Of a stretch of 64,000 nucleotides of DNA, positions 8,290 through 16,752 are shown one piece after another. Made by a program: the position numbers and the translations under genes. The stretch's first letter is position 1, and each line of letters starts with the position of its first letter. The notes below the pieces were generated by a model. It was not told the origin of the DNA and did not search any database. It worked only from the letters and a program-made list of their open reading frames with translations. This DNA comes from an uncultured Verrucomicrobiota bacterium (GTDB lineage Bacteria; Verrucomicrobiota; Verrucomicrobiia; Opitutales; Opitutaceae): contig CAIUGM010000027.1 of the NCBI GenBank assembly GCA_903898675.1, forward strand, positions 62,001-126,000. The letters run 5' to 3'.

Positions 8290-8731
8290 GCCGCTACGAC
8301 ACGGTCCCCGCCCATCCGTTCAAGGCTTTACGCCATATCTTATGGCCTCGGGGGTCAGCATTCATACCTCTACCTCCATTCAATTGTAACCCAATTGCGA
8401 CGTGACGGATGGCATGACCCGTGCTACTGTACAGTTCGTCATAGGACGATTGCTTTCGAAGAACTCCCCAAACTGTTCTTTGACTTTGGTTTAATCCGGC
8501 GGCGAGGCCGTCGGGTGGAACCGTGGACTGTGTGCCTCTGTGTAGGGCAGCCCGGACGTGCGTCGCTTTTGCGCCACCGGATCGCCCCCAAAACTAGACT
8601 TTTGCTGTAGATGGACCGTTTACCGGGTCGTCTGCGGCGAAACAGGGTGTTGTCCTGCAGCCATTTCGGCTGGTGGTCGCATCTTGCCTAAACAGAAAAC
8701 AAAACCCCGCTTAACGGCGGGGATTATACCA
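8290..8731. other. 442-base intergenic region, function unassigned
   Basis: No convincing coding frame. The part at about 8320-8490 has lower G+C than the surroundings. It contains a 10-base perfect palindrome ACTGTACAGT near 8428-8437, an AAGAAC / GTTCTT inverted pair around 8457-8480, a small hairpin CAGCC-ATTTC-GGCTG near 8657-8671, and the hairpin at 8705-8722. It separates a minus-strand operon from a plus-strand gene, so it should hold divergent promoters, but I cannot place them with confidence. A small RNA is possible but not demonstrated. Confidence 0.5.
8705..8722 (-). terminator. terminator-like hairpin on the minus strand, adjoining a plus-strand start
   Basis: A perfect 6-bp stem CCCCGC / GCGGGG with a 6-base loop. 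Read on the minus strand it is followed by TTTTGTTTT, so it looks like an intrinsic terminator for minus-strand RNA. It ends only 9 bases before the ATG of the TonB-domain gene. On the plus strand it would be a hairpin just 5' of the start codon and could affect ribosome access instead. Confidence 0.5.
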
Positions 8732-9130
8732 ATGAACACAAAGTCCAAAATCGCCCTCAGCCTCGGTCTGCTCCTGGCTCCTCTCGCCTTACTGGCGAAG
8801 TCTCCGGAAGCGGAATATGTTGAGTCCTACCATGGTCGCACGGACATTCCGGTCCCAGTCTCGGTCGTTATGCCCGAGGTCGCTGGCCGGTTTGCCGGCA
8901 AGCAGGTAGTGCTCGAGTTCGTCGTTGATACGGCGGGCAAGCCGACGTCCATCACGTCGACCTCGCCCGGCGTTGATGCCGAGCTCCTGGCTTCAGTGCA
9001 AACCGCCGTTGCGCAGTGGCATTTCGCCCCCGCGCTCGTCGACGGCAAGCCTGTCGCCCGCAAAGTGGTGCTGCCCGTGAATATTGTCGATGAGATCGGC
9101 AATTCCTCGCGCTTCGTGGCACTGAACTAA
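8732..9130 (+). CDS. small exported TonB C-terminal-domain protein
   Basis: 132 residues; start taken at the ATG giving a signal peptide (MNTKSKIALSLGLLLAPLALLA, split here as MNTKSKIALSLG then LLLAPLALLA). After cleavage only a TonB C-terminal-like domain remains (VVLEFVVDTAGKPTSITSTS, AVAQWHFAPALVDGKPVARK). There is no Pro-rich spacer and no obvious retained N-terminal anchor, so it is not a complete TonB energy transducer. A similar domain occurs twice in the protein at 18578-19291. Function unknown. A strong terminator follows. Confidence 0.8.
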   Translation: MNTKSKIALSLGLLLAPLALLAKSPEAEYVESYHGRTDIPVPVSVVMPEVAGRFAGKQVVLEFVVDTAGKPTSITSTSPGVDAELLASVQTAVAQWHFAPALVDGKPVARKVVLPVNIVDEIGNSSRFVALN

Positions 9131-9144
9131 AAAAGAAACCAACC

Positions 9145-9178
9145 AAGGCCGTCCCCTGCGCAAGCGGGGGGCGGCCTT
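9145..9178 (+). terminator. intrinsic terminator after the TonB-domain gene
   Basis: A long stem AAGGCCG...CGGCCTT with a nearly paired GC-rich interior and a small loop, beginning 14 bases after the stop codon at 9130. The sequence after it is only moderately T-rich (GTCATTTT), while the minus-strand side has TTTCTTTTTT, so it may work in both directions. It separates the gene from the his leader. Confidence 0.75.
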
Positions 9179-9341
9179 GTCATTTTCACCCGACGCCACC
9201 CGGTGGCGCGGGGATCTTCCGCGCTCACGGCAGTTCCGGGCCGGCCGTTATGACACATCGACTTGCGCACGGCGCCCGCCGCTACCATAGAAAAATACTT
9301 GCGCCGCACCGCGCCGGACGCCATCAAACGCCTTCGATCCC

Positions 9342-9377
9342 ATGGTTCTCAACCATCACCACCATCACGCTTGCTAG
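9342..9377 (+). CDS. hisL: his operon leader peptide (MVLNHHHHHAC)
   Basis: An 11-codon frame: ATG GTT CTC AAC, then five consecutive His codons (CAT CAC CAC CAT CAC), GCT TGC and TAG. Five His codons in a row shortly before an intrinsic terminator and hisG are the hallmark of ribosome-mediated attenuation: when charged His-tRNA is scarce the ribosome stalls on these codons and the downstream RNA refolds. No strong Shine-Dalgarno sequence is visible before the ATG, as for several genes here. Assignment rests on the codon run and position, not on any database match. Confidence 0.85.
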   Translation: MVLNHHHHHAC

Positions 9378-9474
9378 CCTTCCCCGCGCGGGAAGGCCGG
9401 AAGTGCCTTGCCCGTGGCTGATGGATCAAATTTCCAAAACCCCGGCAGGTTCATCCAGCCGGGGTTTCGCTTTT
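9353..9474 (+). promoter_or_regulatory. his attenuator (leader hairpins plus terminator)
   Basis: Segments that can be read directly: the His-codon run CCATCACCAC (9353-9362) can pair with GTGGCTGATGG (9414-9424) with one bulge; a 7-bp hairpin CCTTCCC/GGGAAGG (9378-9396) follows the leader stop; GGCTGATGGATC (9416-9427) can alternatively pair with 9448-9460, overlapping the loop and the first three bases of the terminator's 3' arm; and the terminator at 9437-9467. The 1:2 and 2:3 pairings share the same middle segment, as expected for an attenuator. The 2:3 helix overlaps the terminator only partly, so its strength as antiterminator needs folding. Confidence 0.75.
9437..9474 (+). terminator. 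his attenuator terminator
   Basis: Perfect 10-bp stem AAACCCCGGC (9437-9446) / GCCGGGGTTT (9458-9467), an 11-base loop, then CGC and TTTT (9468-9474). It lies 60 bases after the leader stop codon and 80 bases before the hisG ATG, so transcription must read through it to express the operon. Confidence 0.85.
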
Positions 9475-9553: not shown

Positions 9554-10462
9554 ATGCCCGCTTCACCGCCCAAAGATCGTCTTCGCCTCGCCGTCCAAAA
9601 AAGCGGCCGCCTGTCCACGGACTCGCTCGACCTGCTCAAGAGCTGCGGCATCCGCGTCAAGGCCCCCAAGGAACGCCTGCTGCTCCATGCCGACAACTTC
9701 CCGGTCGATGTGCTCTTCGTCCGCGACGACGACATCCCCCAGCTGGTCATGGACGGGGTGTGCGACCTCGGCATCGTCGGCACCAATGTGCTCGAGGAGG
9801 CCGCCCTTGAGCGCCGCCACAATGGGGATGGCGGCGGTTACCTGGTGGAACGCCCGCTCGACTTCGGCGGCTGCCGGCTGGCGCTCGCGCTGCCCGAGGA
9901 GCGCCCGTACACGAATTTGCGCGACCTCGAGGGCCTGCGCATCGCGACCTCCTACCCGCAGCTGACGAAACGTTTTCTCGCCGAGCAGAAGATCAAGGCG
10001 GACGTCGTCTATCTCAGCGGCTCGGTGGAGATCGCCCCGCGCCTCGGCCTCGCCGACGTGATCTGCGACCTGGTCGCCACCGGCTCCACGCTCGAGGCCA
10101 ACAAGCTGCGCGCGATCGACACCGTGTTCAAGAGCACCGCCGTCCTCATCCGCAACACGCGGGAGTTCACCGCGGACAAGACGCATGCGCTGGAAATCCT
10201 GCTGCGCCGCATCGACGGCGTGCAGCGCGCGGCCGGCGCCAAGTACATCATGCTGCACGCGCCCAAGGCCTCGCTGGCCGCCATCAAGAAGCTGCTGCCG
10301 GGTTCGGAAAACCCCACCATCCTCCCGCTCGCCGGGGATGACACCAAGGTCGCCCTGCACGCGGTCTGCGCCGAGTCCGTCTTTTGGGAAACCATGGAGT
10401 CGCTCAAGCAGGCCGGGGCGAGCAGCATTCTGGTCCTGCCGATTGAAAAAATGATGCTCTGA
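9554..10462 (+). CDS. hisG: ATP phosphoribosyltransferase, long form
   Basis: 302 residues. Catalyses the first, feedback-controlled step of histidine synthesis (ATP + PRPP to phosphoribosyl-ATP). The length and the C-terminal ACT-like domain (about residues 225-300, ending SILVLPIEKMML) make it the long HisG form that needs no HisZ. The PRPP-binding loop is DVICDLVATGSTLEANKL, and the N-terminal LAVQKSGRLSTDSLDLL matches the family. First structural gene after the attenuator; hisD follows after 41 bases. Confidence 0.96.
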   Translation: MPASPPKDRLRLAVQKSGRLSTDSLDLLKSCGIRVKAPKERLLLHADNFPVDVLFVRDDDIPQLVMDGVCDLGIVGTNVLEEAALERRHNGDGGGYLVERPLDFGGCRLALALPEERPYTNLRDLEGLRIATSYPQLTKRFLAEQKIKADVVYLSGSVEIAPRLGLADVICDLVATGSTLEANKLRAIDTVFKSTAVLIRNTREFTADKTHALEILLRRIDGVQRAAGAKYIMLHAPKASLAAIKKLLPGSENPTILPLAGDDTKVALHAVCAESVFWETMESLKQAGASSILVLPIEKMML

Positions 10463-10503
10463 TTCCTGTCGGGGCGCCGTCTCGCCGCGCCCTTCCGCCG
10501 CCC

Positions 10504-11805
10504 ATGCAACCCCTCACCTGGAATAAACTCTCCGCCGCCCGGCGGGCCGCCGCGCTCCGCCGGCCCGCGCAACAGGCGCAGCCGCAGGTGGCCGCCGCCG
10601 TGCGCGCGATCGTCGCAGAGGTGCGGCGCGCGGGCGACGCCGCACTCCGCCGGCTCACGCGGAAGTTTGACGGCGTCGCGCTGCGCGGTTTGCGCGTGAC
10701 GGACGCCGAGTTCGCCGCCGCCGCCGCCGCGCTGGGCCGCACCGACCTGGCCGCGTTGCGCTCCGCCTACCGCAACATCCACACCTTTCACGCGGCGCAG
10801 CGCCCGCCCGATCTTCGCGTCGAAACCCAGCCGGGCATCGTGTGCGAAAAAGTCTCCCGCCCGATCAACCGTGTCGGCCTTTACGTGCCGGGCGGCAGTG
10901 CGCCGCTGCCCTCGACCGCCTTGATGCTGGGCGTGCCGTCGCAGCTCGCCGGCTCCGCCATCCGGGTGCTCTGCACGCCGCCGGACAAAACCGGCGGCAT
11001 CAACCCGTGGATCCTCTGCGCCGCCCGGCTGTGCGGCATCACGGAAGTCTACAAGGCCGGCGGCGCCCAGGCGATCGCCGCCATGGCGTACGGCACCGCC
11101 AGCATTCCGAAGTGCGACAAGCTGTTCGGCCCGGGCAACGCGTTCGTCACCGAGGCGAAACAACAGGTTTCCCGCGATGCCGACGGCGCCGCCATCGATC
11201 TGCCTGCGGGGCCGTCCGAGGTGCTGGTCATCGCCGACGCCCGCGCCAATCCCGCCTTCGTGGCCGCCGATTTGCTTTCCCAGGCCGAGCATGGCCCGGA
11301 TTCCCAGGTGGTGCTCGTGACCTTCAGCGCGGCCTTTGCCCGCCGAGTTTTGCTCCAGCTGGAAAAACAGCTCGCGGACCTGCCGCGCGCCGCCCTCGCC
11401 CGGCGTGCCCTCGCACGCAGCCGGATCTTCCTTGCCGCCAGTCGGCGCGAAGCCGTCGAGATTGCCAACCGTTACGCCCCCGAGCACCTCATCCTGCAGG
11501 TGGCGAAGCCGCGCGAATTGCTCGCGGGCCTCAGCACCGCGGGTTCCGTTTTCCTCGGCGACCTGACGCCCGAATCGCTCGGCGACTACGCCAGCGGCAC
11601 CAACCATGTGCTGCCTACCTACGGCTGGGCGCGGGCCTGCAGCGGGCTCGGGCTCGCCGATTTCCAGCGCACCATGACCGTGCAAACCGCCAGCAAGGCG
11701 GGCCTGCGGAAACTCGGCCCGGTCGTCGAGCGCCTCGCGCTGGCCGAGGGCCTCGCCGCCCACCAGCGGGCCGTGCGCGTACGACTGGAGACTTTTTCGT
11801 CATGA
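10504..11805 (+). CDS. hisD: histidinol dehydrogenase
   Basis: 433 residues; zinc- and NAD-dependent enzyme that oxidises histidinol to histidine in the final two steps. Family motifs are the glycine-rich YVPGGSAPLPSTALM, FGPGNAFVTEAK, GPSEVLVIAD, the zinc/catalytic segment LLSQAEHGPDSQ, YAPEHL and SGTNHVLPT. The stop overlaps the hisC start by 4 bases (ATGA), indicating translational coupling. Confidence 0.96.
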   Translation: MQPLTWNKLSAARRAAALRRPAQQAQPQVAAAVRAIVAEVRRAGDAALRRLTRKFDGVALRGLRVTDAEFAAAAAALGRTDLAALRSAYRNIHTFHAAQRPPDLRVETQPGIVCEKVSRPINRVGLYVPGGSAPLPSTALMLGVPSQLAGSAIRVLCTPPDKTGGINPWILCAARLCGITEVYKAGGAQAIAAMAYGTASIPKCDKLFGPGNAFVTEAKQQVSRDADGAAIDLPAGPSEVLVIADARANPAFVAADLLSQAEHGPDSQVVLVTFSAAFARRVLLQLEKQLADLPRAALARRALARSRIFLAASRREAVEIANRYAPEHLILQVAKPRELLAGLSTAGSVFLGDLTPESLGDYASGTNHVLPTYGWARACSGLGLADFQRTMTVQTASKAGLRKLGPVVERLALAEGLAAHQRAVRVRLETFSS

Positions 11806-12872
11806 ACCCCGCCGATCCCGTCCTCTCCCTGATCCGGCCGGAAATCCTCGCGCTGACGCCGTACAGCTCGGCGCGCAAGGAGTCCTCGGGCGGACGGGTT
11901 TGGCTGGATGCGAACGAAAACCCGCAAACACCATCCGCCGGGAAACCGCTGCTCAACCGCTACCCCGAGCCACAGCCGGCCGACCTGGTGGCACGCCTTG
12001 CCGATTACTACGCTGTCGCGCCGGAAAATATTCTCGTCACCCGCGGCTCGGACGAGGGCATCGATCTCCTGCTCCGGGCGTTTTGCCGGGCGGGCTCGGA
12101 CTCGATTCTGATCACGCCGCCAACCTACGGCATGTACGCGGTCTCCGCGGCCATTCAGCACGCCGCCGTGGTCAGCGTGCCGCTCGTGGCCGCAAAGAAC
12201 TTTGCCCTGGATGCCGGCGCAGTGCTGCAGGCCGCCCAGCCCGGGGTGAAGCTGGTCTTCCTTTGCTCGCCGAATAATCCCACCGGGGCGCTGCTCGACC
12301 GCACCGCCGTCCTGTCGGTGGCCCGGGCCCTGCTCGGCCGCGCGGTGGTCGTGGTGGACGAGGCTTACCTCGAATTCGCCGGGACCCGCAGCCTCGCCAC
12401 GGAACTGACCGCGCAGCCCAATCTGATCGTGCTCCGCACGCTGTCGAAGGCCTTCGGCCTCGCGGGGGTGCGCTGCGGCGTGACCATCGCCAGCCCGGCG
12501 CTCATCGGCGTCCTGCAAAAGATCATCGCGCCCTACCCGGTGCCGACGCCCGTGTTGCACGCCGCGCTGGCCGCGGTATCGCCCGAGGGCCTGGCCGCGG
12601 CCCGCGCCTCGGTGCAGTCCCTGGTGGCGGAACGGCGCCGGCTGGCGGCCGCGCTCGCCGCGCTGCCGGCGGTCCGCCGCGTCTGGCCGAGTGACGCCAA
12701 TTTTCTGCTCTTTGAAACCACCGATTCCGCGCGGGTCATGTCGGCGACCCGCGCCGCCGGAGTCGTGCTGCGCGACCGCAGCCGCGACCACGGCCTCGCC
12801 AACTGCGTGCGCATGACGATGGGCACGCCCGAGGAAAACAACGCCGCCCTGGAGGTTCTCGCCCGTGTCTAA
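11802..12872 (+). CDS. hisC: histidinol-phosphate aminotransferase
   Basis: 356 residues, PLP-dependent class I/II aminotransferase that converts imidazole-acetol phosphate to histidinol phosphate. Start at the ATG overlapping the hisD stop. Visible motifs: LDANENPQ near the N-terminus, LLDRTAVL..VVVDEAYLEF (the PLP-ring Asp and Tyr) and the Schiff-base lysine in RTLSKAFGLAGVRCG. Overlaps hisB by 8 bases. Confidence 0.95.
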   Translation: MNPADPVLSLIRPEILALTPYSSARKESSGGRVWLDANENPQTPSAGKPLLNRYPEPQPADLVARLADYYAVAPENILVTRGSDEGIDLLLRAFCRAGSDSILITPPTYGMYAVSAAIQHAAVVSVPLVAAKNFALDAGAVLQAAQPGVKLVFLCSPNNPTGALLDRTAVLSVARALLGRAVVVVDEAYLEFAGTRSLATELTAQPNLIVLRTLSKAFGLAGVRCGVTIASPALIGVLQKIIAPYPVPTPVLHAALAAVSPEGLAAARASVQSLVAERRRLAAALAALPAVRRVWPSDANFLLFETTDSARVMSATRAAGVVLRDRSRDHGLANCVRMTMGTPEENNAALEVLARV

Positions 12873-13932
12873 AAAAATCCTGTTCATCGACCGCGACGGC
12901 ACGCTCATCACCGAGCCGTTCGACCAGCAAATCGACCGGCTCGACAAGTTCGCGCTCGAGCCCGACACGATCCCCGCCCTGCTGCGCCTGCGCGATGCCG
13001 GCTGGAAGTTTGTCATGGTCACCAACCAGGACGGCCTCGGCACGCCGAGCTTCCGCGAGGAGGAATTCAAGCCGCTGCAAAAGCTGCTGCTGGATATTCT
13101 CGGCTCGCAGGGCATCGGGTTTGAAGCCGTGCGCGTCTGCCCGCACACCGCCGCCGACCAATGCGACTGCCGCAAGCCGAAGCTCGGCCTGCTGATGGAC
13201 TATGTCCGCGCCACCGACTGGTCCCGCGAGCAGTCCGCCGTGATCGGCGACCGCGAGACCGACCTCGTTCTCGCCCAGAATCTCGGCATCCGCGGCCTGC
13301 GCTACGAGCCCAAGGCCCTCGGCTGGGCGGAAATCGCCCGCCTGCTGGTCGATGCCCCGCGGCGCGCCACCATCGTGCGGAACACAAAGGAAACCAAGAT
13401 CACCGTCTCGGTCGACCTCGACCAGGCCGCGCCGGCGCAACTCTCGACCGGCCTCGCCTTCTTCGACCACATGCTGGAACAGATCGCGAAGAACGCCGGC
13501 ATCAGCCTCGCCATCAAGTGCGACGGCGATCTCGAGATCGACGAACATCACACGGTCGAGGACGTCGGCATCGCGCTGGGCCAGGCGCTCAAGCAGGCGA
13601 TCGGCGACAAGCGCGGGATCGGCCGCTATGGGTTCGTGCTGCCGATGGACGAGGCCCAGGCCCAGGTGGCGCTCGACCTTAGCGGCCGCGCGTACTTTAC
13701 GTTTGAGGGAAAATTCCCGCGCGAAATGGTCGGCGAGCTCCCGACGGAATTGGTGGCTCATTTCTTCCGTTCGCTCAGCGACGCGCTCGCGGCCACGCTC
13801 CAGATGAGCGTGAAGGGCGACAACACGCACCACATGGTCGAGACCCTGTTCAAGGGTTTCGGCCGCGCCCTGCGGCCCGCGATCGCCCGTGGCACCGGCA
13901 GCGAGATCCCGAGCACGAAGGGAGTTCTTTGA
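12865..13932 (+). CDS. hisB: bifunctional histidinol-phosphatase / imidazoleglycerol-phosphate dehydratase
   Basis: 355 residues starting at GTG, with a good GGAGG ribosome site 9 bases upstream inside hisC. Residues 1-165 are a HAD phosphatase (FIDRDGTL with nucleophile D9 and D11; zinc-loop Cys/His in VCPHTAADQCDCRKPK). Residues about 170-355 are the dehydratase (FFDHMLEQIAKNAG, DEHHTVEDVGIALG, FRSLSDAL, C-terminal STKGVL). Such NB-fused HisB is best known from gammaproteobacteria such as E. coli and is also reported outside them; many bacteria carry a stand-alone dehydratase. Part of the enterobacterial-type architecture of this operon. Confidence 0.95.
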   Translation: MSKKILFIDRDGTLITEPFDQQIDRLDKFALEPDTIPALLRLRDAGWKFVMVTNQDGLGTPSFREEEFKPLQKLLLDILGSQGIGFEAVRVCPHTAADQCDCRKPKLGLLMDYVRATDWSREQSAVIGDRETDLVLAQNLGIRGLRYEPKALGWAEIARLLVDAPRRATIVRNTKETKITVSVDLDQAAPAQLSTGLAFFDHMLEQIAKNAGISLAIKCDGDLEIDEHHTVEDVGIALGQALKQAIGDKRGIGRYGFVLPMDEAQAQVALDLSGRAYFTFEGKFPREMVGELPTELVAHFFRSLSDALAATLQMSVKGDNTHHMVETLFKGFGRALRPAIARGTGSEIPSTKGVL

Positions 13933-14525
13933 TGCTAGCGATCGTCGACAGCGGCGGCGCCAACATCGCCTCGGTGCGCTTTGCGCTCGAGCGGCTCGGC
14001 GTGCGCAGTGAACTCACGGCGGATCCGGCGGTGATCCGGTCGGCCGAGCGCGTCATTCTTCCCGGCGTCGGTTCCGCGGTCGAGGGCATGAAACGCCTCC
14101 ACGCCAAGGGCCTCGTCGAGTGCGTGCGCGGCCTGACCCAGCCCGTCCTCGGTGTGTGCCTCGGAATGCAGCTGCTCTTCGAGTCTTCCGCCGAGGGCCC
14201 GGTCGACACGCTCGGCCTGATTCCCGGCCGGGTGGCGCTCCTGCCGGACTCGCCCGGCATCCAGGTCCCGCACATGGGTTGGAACACCGTGCAGATTGCC
14301 AAGCCGGTGGCCCTGCTCGACGGCATCGAGGCCGGGGCCCGGTTCTATTTCGTGCACAGCTACGCCGGGCCGGCGAACGAGTTCACCCTCGCAAGCTGCA
14401 CGCACGGCACCGCTTTTGCCGCCATCGTGCAGCGCGGCAATTTCTCCGGCGTCCAGTTCCACCCCGAGCGCTCCGGCCCGGCCGGCGCCCGGCTCCTGCA
14501 AAACTTTGTGGAGGGCCGCGCATGA
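13932..14525 (+). CDS. hisH: imidazole glycerol phosphate synthase, glutaminase subunit
   Basis: 197 residues. Class I glutamine amidotransferase that feeds ammonia to HisF. The nucleophile is in LGVCLGMQLLFESS, the catalytic His and Glu in GVQFHPERSG. The ATG at 13932 shares one base with the hisB stop and has a GGGAG ribosome site upstream. Forms the HisHF complex although hisA lies between hisH and hisF, as in E. coli. Confidence 0.95.
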   Translation: MLAIVDSGGANIASVRFALERLGVRSELTADPAVIRSAERVILPGVGSAVEGMKRLHAKGLVECVRGLTQPVLGVCLGMQLLFESSAEGPVDTLGLIPGRVALLPDSPGIQVPHMGWNTVQIAKPVALLDGIEAGARFYFVHSYAGPANEFTLASCTHGTAFAAIVQRGNFSGVQFHPERSGPAGARLLQNFVEGRA

Positions 14526-15250
14526 TCGTTTATCCCGCCATCGACCTCCGCGGCGGCCGCGTCGTGCGCCTGACCGAGGGAAAATTCGATCAGGAAAAAA
14601 CCTACGGTGACGACCCGCTGCTGGTGGCCCGCGGCTTTGCCGCCGCCGGGGCGACCTGGCTGCATGTCGTGGACCTTGACGGGGCCAAGGATCCCGCGCA
14701 GCGCCAGACGGCACTCCTGCAAAAACTGGCGGGCGAAAGCGGCCTGCTCGTCCAGACGGGCGGCGGGATCCGCGAGGTCACCCAGATCGACGCGTTGCTC
14801 AGTGCCGGCGCCGAGCGCGTGATTGTCGGCAGCCTGGCCGTGAAGGAACCCGCCCGCGTGCGGGAGTGGCTCGGCCGTTTCGGCGGGGAGCGCATCATCC
14901 TGGCGCCGGACGTGCGGCTCGATGCCAGCGGCATCCCGCGGATCGCCGCGGCGGGCTGGCAGGAGAGCACCGGCGTCGCGCTCGATGACTTTCTCACCGG
15001 CTACCTGCCGGCGGGCCTGCGTCACATCCTGTGCACCGACATCAGCCGCGACGGCAAACTGACCGGACCCAACACGGCGCTCTACGCCGGGCTGATCAAC
15101 CGTTTCCCCACCCTGCAGATCCAGGCCTCGGGCGGCGTGGCCGCCCTGAGCGACCTGCCGCCGCTCCGCGCGGCCGGCGCCGCCGGGGTTATTGTCGGCC
15201 GCGCGCTCTACGAGAAGAAATTCACCCTGCAGGAAGCCCTGGCGTGCTGA
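14522..15250 (+). CDS. hisA: ProFAR isomerase
   Basis: 242 residues, a (beta/alpha)8 barrel. Isomerises the 5-ProFAR aminoaldose to the ketose. Starts MIVYPAIDLRGGRVVRL with the catalytic Asp8, second catalytic Asp in LCTDISRDGKLTGPN, and phosphate-binding ends QTGGGIRE and QASGGVAAL. ATG overlaps the hisH stop, with a GGAGG site before it. It is followed by a 126-base repeat-like spacer, the only sizeable gap after hisD. Confidence 0.95.
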   Translation: MIVYPAIDLRGGRVVRLTEGKFDQEKTYGDDPLLVARGFAAAGATWLHVVDLDGAKDPAQRQTALLQKLAGESGLLVQTGGGIREVTQIDALLSAGAERVIVGSLAVKEPARVREWLGRFGGERIILAPDVRLDASGIPRIAAAGWQESTGVALDDFLTGYLPAGLRHILCTDISRDGKLTGPNTALYAGLINRFPTLQIQASGGVAALSDLPPLRAAGAAGVIVGRALYEKKFTLQEALAC

Positions 15251-15376
15251 GAAATTACAAAGACCAAACCGCCCAATGCCAAAAAAACTTCGAATCTCCA
15301 AAATCAAACCCATAAGCCGGGCTTTGGCCTTGGCCTTTGTTTGGCCTTTGGCTCTTGGCGCTTGGCCTTTTTTCTC
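15251..15376. repeat. low-complexity GGCC/TTTGG tract between hisA and hisF
   Basis: The left half is A-rich with CCAAA units, the right half is built of repeated TTTGGCC, CTTGGCC and CTTGGCG units ending in a T run just before the hisF ATG. The halves are loosely complementary, so the RNA could fold into a long imperfect hairpin. It interrupts an otherwise tightly overlapping operon and has a composition unlike the his genes. Confidence 0.6.
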
Positions 15377-16144
15377 ATGTTAGCCCGCCGCATCATCCCG
15401 TGTCTCGACGTCCGCGACGGCCAGGTGGTCAAGGGCACGCAGTTCCGCGATCACGAGATCGTGGGCGACATCATCGAGCTGGCGCAACGCTACCGCGATG
15501 AAGGCGCGGATGAACTTGTGTTCTATGATATCACGGCCAGCAGCGACGGCCGCACCGTCTCGACGGACTGGGTGACGCGCGTCGCCCGCGTGCTCGACAT
15601 TCCCTTCTGTGTTGCCGGCGGCATCCGCTCGCTAGCCGGGGCCCGCGCCATCCTCCACTCCGGGGCCGACAAGATCTCCATCAACTCCCCGGCCCTCGAA
15701 AATCCCGCCCTGATCACCGAACTCGCCACCGAGTTCGGCTCGCAGTGCGTGGTCGTCGGCATCGACAGCCGGCAGGAAAACGACGGCTACTTCGTCAAGC
15801 AGTACACCGGCGACCCCGACAAGACCCGCGCCACCCGCTGGGGCACGGTCGAGTGGGCGCGCGAGGCGCAGCGGCTCGGCGCCGGTGAAGTCGTGCTCAA
15901 CTGCATGAACCAGGACGGCATGCGGCAGGGTTATGACCTCGCGCAGTTGCGGCTGGCGCGGGCCGCGTTGACGATTCCCCTCGTCGCCTCCGGCGGCGCC
16001 GGCACGCCGGCGCATTTCCGCGACGCCTTCCGCGACGCCGGCGTCGACGGCGCGCTGGCCGCCTCGGTGTTCCACAAGGGGACCATCAAGATTCCCGCGC
16101 TGAAGGCCCAGCTGATCGCCGACGGCATTTCGATTCGCCCATGA
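15377..16144 (+). CDS. hisF: imidazole glycerol phosphate synthase, cyclase subunit
   Basis: 255 residues, (beta/alpha)8 barrel paralogous to HisA. Start [20 protein letters not shown] with catalytic Asp11; second Asp in [14 protein letters not shown]; phosphate sites VAGGIRS and ASGGAGT. The segment [11 protein letters not shown] and the [18 protein letters not shown] insertion region are of the enterobacterial type rather than the form common in Gram-positives. Overlaps hisIE by 4 bases. Confidence 0.95.
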
Positions 16145-16752
16145 AGACTCCCAAAATTGACTGGAAAAAGAACGCCGGCCTGGTTCCTGCCATCGTGCAG
16201 GACGCCGCGACGCTGCAGGTGCTGATGCTCGGCTACATGAACGCCGCGGCCCTGAAGCAAACCCTCCGCACGAAGCGCGTGACCTTCTTCAGCCGCAGCA
16301 AGCAGCGGCTGTGGACCAAGGGCGAATCCTCGGGGAATTTCCTGCATCTCGTCGGCCTCAAGGTGGACTGCGACAACGACACCCTGCTGGTCACCGCCCG
16401 GCCGGACGGCCCGACGTGTCATCGCGGGACCCCGGGCTGCTTCGGTGACCAGGGCGCGACCGGCGCCGGTTTCCTGGCCCAGCTGGACCAGGTGGTCGCC
16501 GCGCGCCTGAAAAGCGGGGACAAGCAGAGCTACACCGTGCGCCTCGCAAAGGAAGGCGTCGCCCGCGTGGCCCAGAAGGTGGGCGAGGAAGGCGTGGAGA
16601 CCGCCCTCGCCGCGTTGAGCGCCAGCCGGAAGGAATTCACCGGCGAGGCGGCCGACCTGCTTTACCACCTGATCGTGCTGCTGCGGGTGAAGAAGCTTTC
16701 GCTCGGCGACGCCATCGCCGTGCTCGAAAAACGGCACGCGCCGAAGAAGTGA
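16141..16752 (+). CDS. hisI: bifunctional PR-AMP cyclohydrolase / PR-ATP pyrophosphatase
   Basis: 203 residues. N-terminal HisI domain with zinc ligands in [11 protein letters not shown] and [14 protein letters not shown]-terminal HisE domain (from about residue 112) with metal-binding [14 protein letters not shown] and [13 protein letters not shown]. Carries out steps 2 and 3 of the pathway. Last gene of the operon; its stop is followed by hairpins and a convergent gene. The fused HisIE is the same arrangement as in enterobacteria. Confidence 0.95.

Follow-up and report, generated by a model that had tools for sequence, protein, structure and literature searches.

The his leader of E. coli (hisL) can adopt two mutually exclusive structures (PMC10065794), and an extra hairpin lies between the pause hairpin and the terminator of the his leader (PMC1183508). 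RNA attenuators have been called a proteobacterial mode of regulation, with his attenuators also found in three Firmicutes lineages; candidates are described for the Bacillus cereus group, the Peptostreptococcaceae and the Erysipelotrichales, and for Lutispora a joint transfer of operon and attenuator has been proposed (PMC9413887). The gene order hisGDC[NB]HAF[IE] is that of the enterobacterial operon (PMC1963479). The same work argues that the hisNB fusion was born within the gammaproteobacteria and spread from there into other lineages as part of the complete operon, the recipients it names including Campylobacter and the CFB group (PMC1963479). A search of the open-access literature returned no paper tying his attenuation to the Verrucomicrobiota or the Opitutaceae and, as far as the open-access papers searched show, a his attenuator in the Verrucomicrobiota is previously unreported.

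The DNA studied here, referred to as the window, is a stretch of 64,000 nucleotides that forms part of contig 27 of a 3.5 Mb genome. The original prediction, made from the letters alone, had guessed at a verrucomicrobial genome, and rightly so, the nearest named relatives being Opitutaceae MAGs (Opitutus, Lacunisphaera, Candidatus Didemnitutus and Oleiharenicola). The window contains a complete operon, hisGDC[NB]HAF[IE], at 9554–16752, downstream of the leader that is the subject of this report. Its genes are as follows.

9554–10462, + strand: hisG, long form of the gammaproteobacterial type (PF01634, PF08029, TIGR00070)
10504–11805, + strand: hisD (profile matches)
11799–12872, + strand: hisC (aminotransferase PF00155 and operon position)
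12865–13932, + strand: hisNB fusion, encoding a bifunctional HisB (NF003937, above cut-off)
13929–14525, + strand: hisH (TIGR01855)
14522–15250, + strand: hisA (TIGR00007)
15377–16144, + strand: hisF (TIGR00735)
16141–16752, + strand: hisIE fusion (NF002747)

The gene order and both fusions (hisNB and hisIE) are identical to those of the E. coli his operon, and in these features the operon is of the gammaproteobacterial type. Upstream, a TonB-C-like gene (8558–9130) is followed by a strong 16-bp intrinsic terminator of its own at 9144–9179, which insulates the his leader. As the upstream gene ends in its own terminator, the leader opens a new transcription unit.

The leader begins with a short open reading frame (ATG GTT CTC AAC CAT CAC CAC CAT CAC GCT TGC TAG) 212 nt before hisG. 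This is the 11-codon frame with five consecutive His codons that had originally been picked out, and it encodes MVLNHHHHHAC. The elements of the leader, lettered as segments A to F with an additional segment A*, are listed below.

9299–9327, + strand: promoter-like element (TTGCGC at 9299–9304, 17 nt, CATCAA at 9322–9327), recognized by comparison of leaders
9342–9377, + strand: leader peptide ORF, MVLNHHHHHAC and stop, with a homologous ORF in 28/28 leaders
9354–9368, + strand: segment A, five tandem His codons, positions 1 and 2 invariant and position 3 C or T
9378–9384, + strand: segment B (CCTTCCC), pairs with C; 0 nt from the leader stop codon in 24/28 leaders
9389–9397, + strand: segment C (CGGGAAGGC), pairs with B (antitermination) or D (termination)
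9399–9414, + strand: segment D, of which 9405–9414 pairs with C and 9399–9412 with E at 9444–9456 (antiterminator)
9414–9424, + strand: segment A* (GTGGCTGATGG), complementary to the His codons; in the modelled stalled state it pairs with the terminator 5' arm, lengthening D:E
9438–9474, + strand: intrinsic terminator E:F (9438–9446 with 9458–9466) with an interrupted T tract (9464–9474)

The five-His run is unique in the 64 kb on either strand, where none is expected (100 shuffles). Immediately downstream of the ORF lies the anticipated hairpin, CCTTCCC/GGGAAGG, formed by 9378–9384 with 9390–9396. In the alignment the conserved core of C is GGGAAGGC (9390–9397) and that of D is GTGCCTTGCC (within 9399–9414). 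Between the leader ORF and the first gene an intrinsic terminator is formed by the arms AACCCCGGC and GCCGGGGTT, followed by TTTCGCTTTT, 87 nt before hisG; the terminator and its position are as first described, with a stem of 9 bp instead of 10. The leader region as a whole is more stable than its shuffles (z = −2.56). In all 28 leaders the distance between the first base of the stop codon and the start of C is 14–17 nt and, because of this fixed spacing of B and C from the stop codon, a ribosome halted there would cover B and leave C free, and a ribosome halted on the His codons would leave B exposed.

A simple sigma-70 scan gave no promoter; instead, a CTTGC box emerged through comparison of the leaders, 41–48 nt upstream of the leader ATG in 27/28 of them. 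The pattern CTTGC-N18–20-CATCAA occurs once in the window (0.07 expected). The conserved AAAATACTTGC box (window 9290–9327; 27/28 leaders), followed after about 17 nt by CATCAA or CTTTTT, is probably the promoter, and the predicted transcription start would lie at about 9333–9336, a few nucleotides upstream of the leader ATG.

The comparison is based on 28 distinct leaders, taken from relatives with a window-type HisG and from named records, the window included. All 19 readable relatives with a window-type HisG (18 from the same genus and one from another Opitutaceae genus, the window not counted) have an ORF that starts with ATG and contains a His run, approximately 190–275 nt upstream of hisG, and ten relatives with the other HisG (approximately 30% identical) show no His run within 500 nt upstream of hisG. 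The His codons are thus conserved among relatives, the leader stands directly before hisG in 28/28 cases, and the layout is identical throughout; recurrence of the arrangement in 28/28 leaders excludes chance. Five or more tandem His codons are present in 21 leaders; across these, none of the ten first and second codon positions varies, and each of the five third positions alternates between C and T. As variation is confined to third positions, it is the His codons themselves, beyond the RNA, that are under selection. One leader (L037:1094–1190) has a shortened peptide, MGFHHHSPLS, no CTTGC box and an unrelated upstream sequence, with segments B to F intact; this odd stretch, close to the end of its contig, suggests a rearrangement or a chimeric contig.

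To model the two states, nascent RNA was folded with its 5' part masked according to ribosome position, a ribosome reach of approximately 13 nt from the A-site codon being assumed. The same procedure recovered the known alternative folds of E. coli hisL. With the middle His codon occupied by the ribosome and the transcript ending just short of F, all 28 leaders form D:E and 27 of them B:C. In this state upstream pairs take up a mean of 5.3 bases out of the 7 in the terminator 5' arm; most of the arm is held because A*, which pairs with E in 28/28 of these folds, lengthens D:E through pairs with the CCCC stretch in E. When the ribosome sits at the stop codon and the transcript ends just short of E, every one of the 28 leaders forms C:D. 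Without a ribosome, and at the same length of RNA, the His codons pair with A* in only 19/28. The mutually exclusive folds that had been looked for are therefore found in the model, with D:E in the stalled state and C:D in the released state, and in these computed structures it is the ribosome that chooses the antiterminator. Once E has been made, the equilibrium fold of the released state is D:E in 18/28 leaders, so that termination must depend on C:D forming first. D:E likewise appears in most leaders when no ribosome is present and the RNA stops short of F.

The antiterminator found here differs from the one first put forward. The original prediction had the His codons pairing with 9414–9424 and the latter pairing alternatively with 9448–9460. 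The first of these pairings holds: no part of the leader complements the His codons better than 9414–9424 (−14.0 kcal/mol, against −8.0 kcal/mol at best elsewhere), and in 26/28 leaders A* ranks first of approximately 88 windows as a complement to the His run. The second does form in the window genome (−12.7 kcal/mol) but is not a conserved antiterminator. It is strong in the window and in one or two relatives, lies between −4.9 and −9.4 kcal/mol in nearly all relatives and is weaker than 9399–9412 with 9444–9456 in all leaders but one, and it was rejected. The latter pairing, D:E, is conserved in all leaders. It also removes the earlier reservation that the antiterminator overlaps the terminator only partly, as the correct D:E and A* between them occupy the larger part of the 5' arm.

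Within D:E, the pair 9404–9451 is U–A in 12 leaders and C–G in nine, and the adjoining pair switches between G–C and G–U. For C:D and E:F together, 98.7% of cells in the alignment are paired (98% for the terminator E:F), with three doubly changed pairs against 0.6 in shuffles. A swap test, which compares the duplex energy of each segment with its own partner and with partners from other leaders over 10,000 permutations and which ignores the kinship of the leaders, gave permutations as stable as the true partners in 0/10,000 cases for D:E, 0/10,000 for E:F and 7/10,000 for C:D. These three helices are backed by direct covariation. The same test gave no covariation for B:C (2878/10,000) or A:A* (8409/10,000); conservation and folding point to B:C, and complementarity is what suggests A:A*.

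From these features a mechanism can be proposed. When histidine is scarce the ribosome would stall on codons 5–9 and cover the His codons. B (9378–9384) would then pair with C (9390–9396), so that D (9399–9412) becomes available for pairing with E plus the terminator loop (9444–9456). A* (9414–9424), released from the covered His codons, would pair with the remainder of the terminator 5' arm, no terminator would form, and RNA polymerase would continue into hisG. When histidine is plentiful the ribosome would reach the stop codon (9375–9377) and cover B, with C free 15 nt downstream; C:D (9389–9397 with 9405–9414) and E:F would form and transcription would stop. If the leader is not translated, the His codons would pair with A*, D and A* would be kept from E, and transcription would again stop. 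The ribosome positions and the response to histidine are inferred from the arrangement of the segments. The apparent attenuator of the original prediction is well supported by the conserved His codons, the mutually exclusive hairpins and the position before hisG, and on the sequence evidence it is real, conserved and almost certainly functional. Very probably it is a ribosome-mediated transcription attenuator of the E. coli his type that came from a gammaproteobacterium together with the entire operon.

The likeness to hisL of E. coli and Salmonella lies in the His-run peptide ending just upstream of segment B, in the opposition of B:C and D:E to C:D and E:F, and in the extra C:D hairpin between leader and terminator. 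E. coli hisL also has a His-complementary stretch after D (AGTGGTGCATGA). This stretch (L112:2588–2599) is its best His-codon complement at −11.2 kcal/mol, with segment B at −9.6 kcal/mol. The post-D stretch ranks first or second among His complements in most of the E. coli, Yersinia and Orbaceae leaders read, the exceptions including Frischella and Orbus. However, the conserved A:B pause hairpin of hisL is absent from this type of leader, in which B:C is short, strong and immediately 3' of the stop codon and the His codons pair chiefly with A* after D. The peptide has 9–11 codons in the Opitutaceae as against 16, the predicted 5' untranslated region is very short, the stems are GC-rich, the Rfam score is below cut-off, and the host belongs to the Verrucomicrobiota. 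A supposed difference in the Shine–Dalgarno sequence was dropped, as this test showed no clear one in hisL of Yersinia and the Orbaceae either. Inspection by eye for a conserved RNA-polymerase pause site revealed no consensus shared by both leader types.

The His_leader family (RF00514) is the best Rfam match of the leader, over its full length, with 38.4 bits (E = 7e-5 for the region, 1.8e-4 for the genome). The search originally suggested thus finds the expected family, at a score that falls short of the curated cut-off of 49 bits. In the alignment to RF00514 the C:D and E:F helices are mostly paired and the A:B pairs are broken. None of 388 Verrucomicrobiota genomes gives a match to RF00514 above the cut-off; other matches in the phylum, at 35–46.8 bits, were set aside as false positives after six loci were read and found without a run of four His codons. 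As such His-less regions score 35–47 bits, the Rfam score alone proves little. With its E. coli-like working, its lack of the A:B pause hairpin and its score below the cut-off, the window leader is a variant and not a member of RF00514, and the Rfam model overlooks real leaders outside the gammaproteobacteria.

The window HisG is 57% identical to that of Yersinia, 56% to Orbaceae, 49% to Bacteroidota and approximately 30% to that of most other Opitutaceae genera. In the sample the fused HisNB is limited to the window genus and one more, with unfused HisB (39–48%) elsewhere in the order. The leader is similarly limited to those Opitutaceae genera that have the gammaproteobacterial-type operon; the others have the approximately 30% identical HisG, unfused HisB and no leader. 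A covariance model made for this analysis and run over 384 genomes of the class gave strong matches (119–154 bits) in two Opitutaceae genera only, and a leader was found in a third by direct reading. Matches at 21–34 bits look like terminators and were rejected, two that were inspected (L121 and L122) being without a His run. In a HisG tree the Opitutaceae branch with the gammaproteobacteria (SH-aLRT 91), inside the Pseudomonadota (99), and in a tree of eight concatenated His proteins with a Legionellales MAG and a Coxiellaceae MAG (SH-aLRT 96), again inside the Pseudomonadota. Both trees place the operon within the gammaproteobacterial his clade; they are quick trees that carry long-branch warnings, with the Legionellales thinly sampled. 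The Coxiellaceae operon also gives the best non-verrucomicrobial identities in most his genes, and its leader peptide, MLNIKDLALHHHPHSQV, is accompanied by C:D-like and terminator hairpins. The simplest account is that operon and leader moved together, before the carrier Opitutaceae genera split or with later spread among them. The notable extension to the Verrucomicrobiota that had been suggested is real as a presence but, as the evidence stands, reflects horizontal transfer of an entire gammaproteobacterial operon plus leader and no independent extension of the mechanism.

Alternatively, the operon may have arrived leaderless and the leader been built within the Opitutaceae by combining a short ORF with a local terminator. 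The hairpins are indeed unlike those of enterobacteria in primary sequence, the A:B pause hairpin and an Rfam score above cut-off are both lacking, and a His leader is missing from several long-HisG operons of gammaproteobacteria. Such convergence is nonetheless unlikely in view of the segment order stop codon-B-C-D-A*-E-F, which is the same in E. coli, Yersinia and Orbaceae leaders, the similar distance to hisG (196 nt in E. coli, 212 nt in the window), the full-length best match to His_leader and the His leader carried by the nearest operon in the tree, that of the Coxiellaceae. If, on the other hand, the terminator were read through or a second promoter lay downstream, the leader would be a relic without attenuation. 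The interrupted T tract, the 87 nt between terminator and hisG and the degenerate leader of L037 with no promoter box would fit this. It is nevertheless very improbable, as synonymous-only change in the His codons and compensating changes in D:E and E:F over 28 species indicate continuing selection, and the L037 upstream sequence has the look of a rearrangement or chimera. A sensor of another amino acid or of tRNA (a T-box) or a protein-binding attenuator, with an incidental His run, was considered since his genes elsewhere are under the control of T-boxes and HisR in phyla other than this one (PMC9413887). It can practically be dismissed, as nothing was found in its favour, a scan of the window at Rfam gathering thresholds gave neither a T-box nor any other family above cut-off, constraint within the ORF is strongest on the His codons, and the stop codon sets the B/C spacing.

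The acquired attenuator, favoured over these alternatives, is then a known principle brought into a new phylum by horizontal transfer, with one helix remodelled; the mechanism is ordinary, and its place and history are moderately surprising. It suggests that a regulator that works with nothing more than ribosome, RNA polymerase and charged tRNA can cross phyla with its operon and stay selected, while one helix, A:B, is replaced. The locus offers a natural comparison between the essential parts of the classical his switch (B:C, C:D, D:E and E:F) and its replaceable ones. A more tentative reading, which we would put at somewhat less than even, is that A* represents a general third state of his attenuators, pairing with the His codons when no ribosome is present or with the terminator 5' arm when one is stalled, and that in the Opitutaceae it has fully replaced A:B, within an attenuator that passed from the Pseudomonadota to the Verrucomicrobiota and was maintained by selection. 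On that reading the third state was overlooked because the A:B hairpin had been credited with its job.

Other leaders and other forms of control were seen beside the acquired attenuator. The Firmicutes attenuators (PMC9413887) share with the window leader a His leader peptide, a terminator and an antiterminator outside the Proteobacteria; they belong to another phylum and are set beside it here by description. In the gammaproteobacterial long-HisG operons that have no His leader (L134, L136, L137, L140 and L141) the ORF directly before hisG looks TrpR-like by eye, and is possibly a HisR-type repressor representing another control of the same operon. Finally, the Bacteroidota leaders (L099–L111 and L145–L164) have a short tandem-His ORF before a related hisG operon. 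They differ in lying mostly 116–230 nt before hisG and in having one terminator-like hairpin in those read, and they resemble the window less than the gammaproteobacterial leaders do. A His-rich leader is often seen among them (L099–L111, L145–L147, L155, L156, L159 and L162), for example MNKNIHTHHHFLPIG, ending in a stop codon, approximately 139 nt before hisG, and the Bacteroidota his leaders are apparently a simpler his attenuator.
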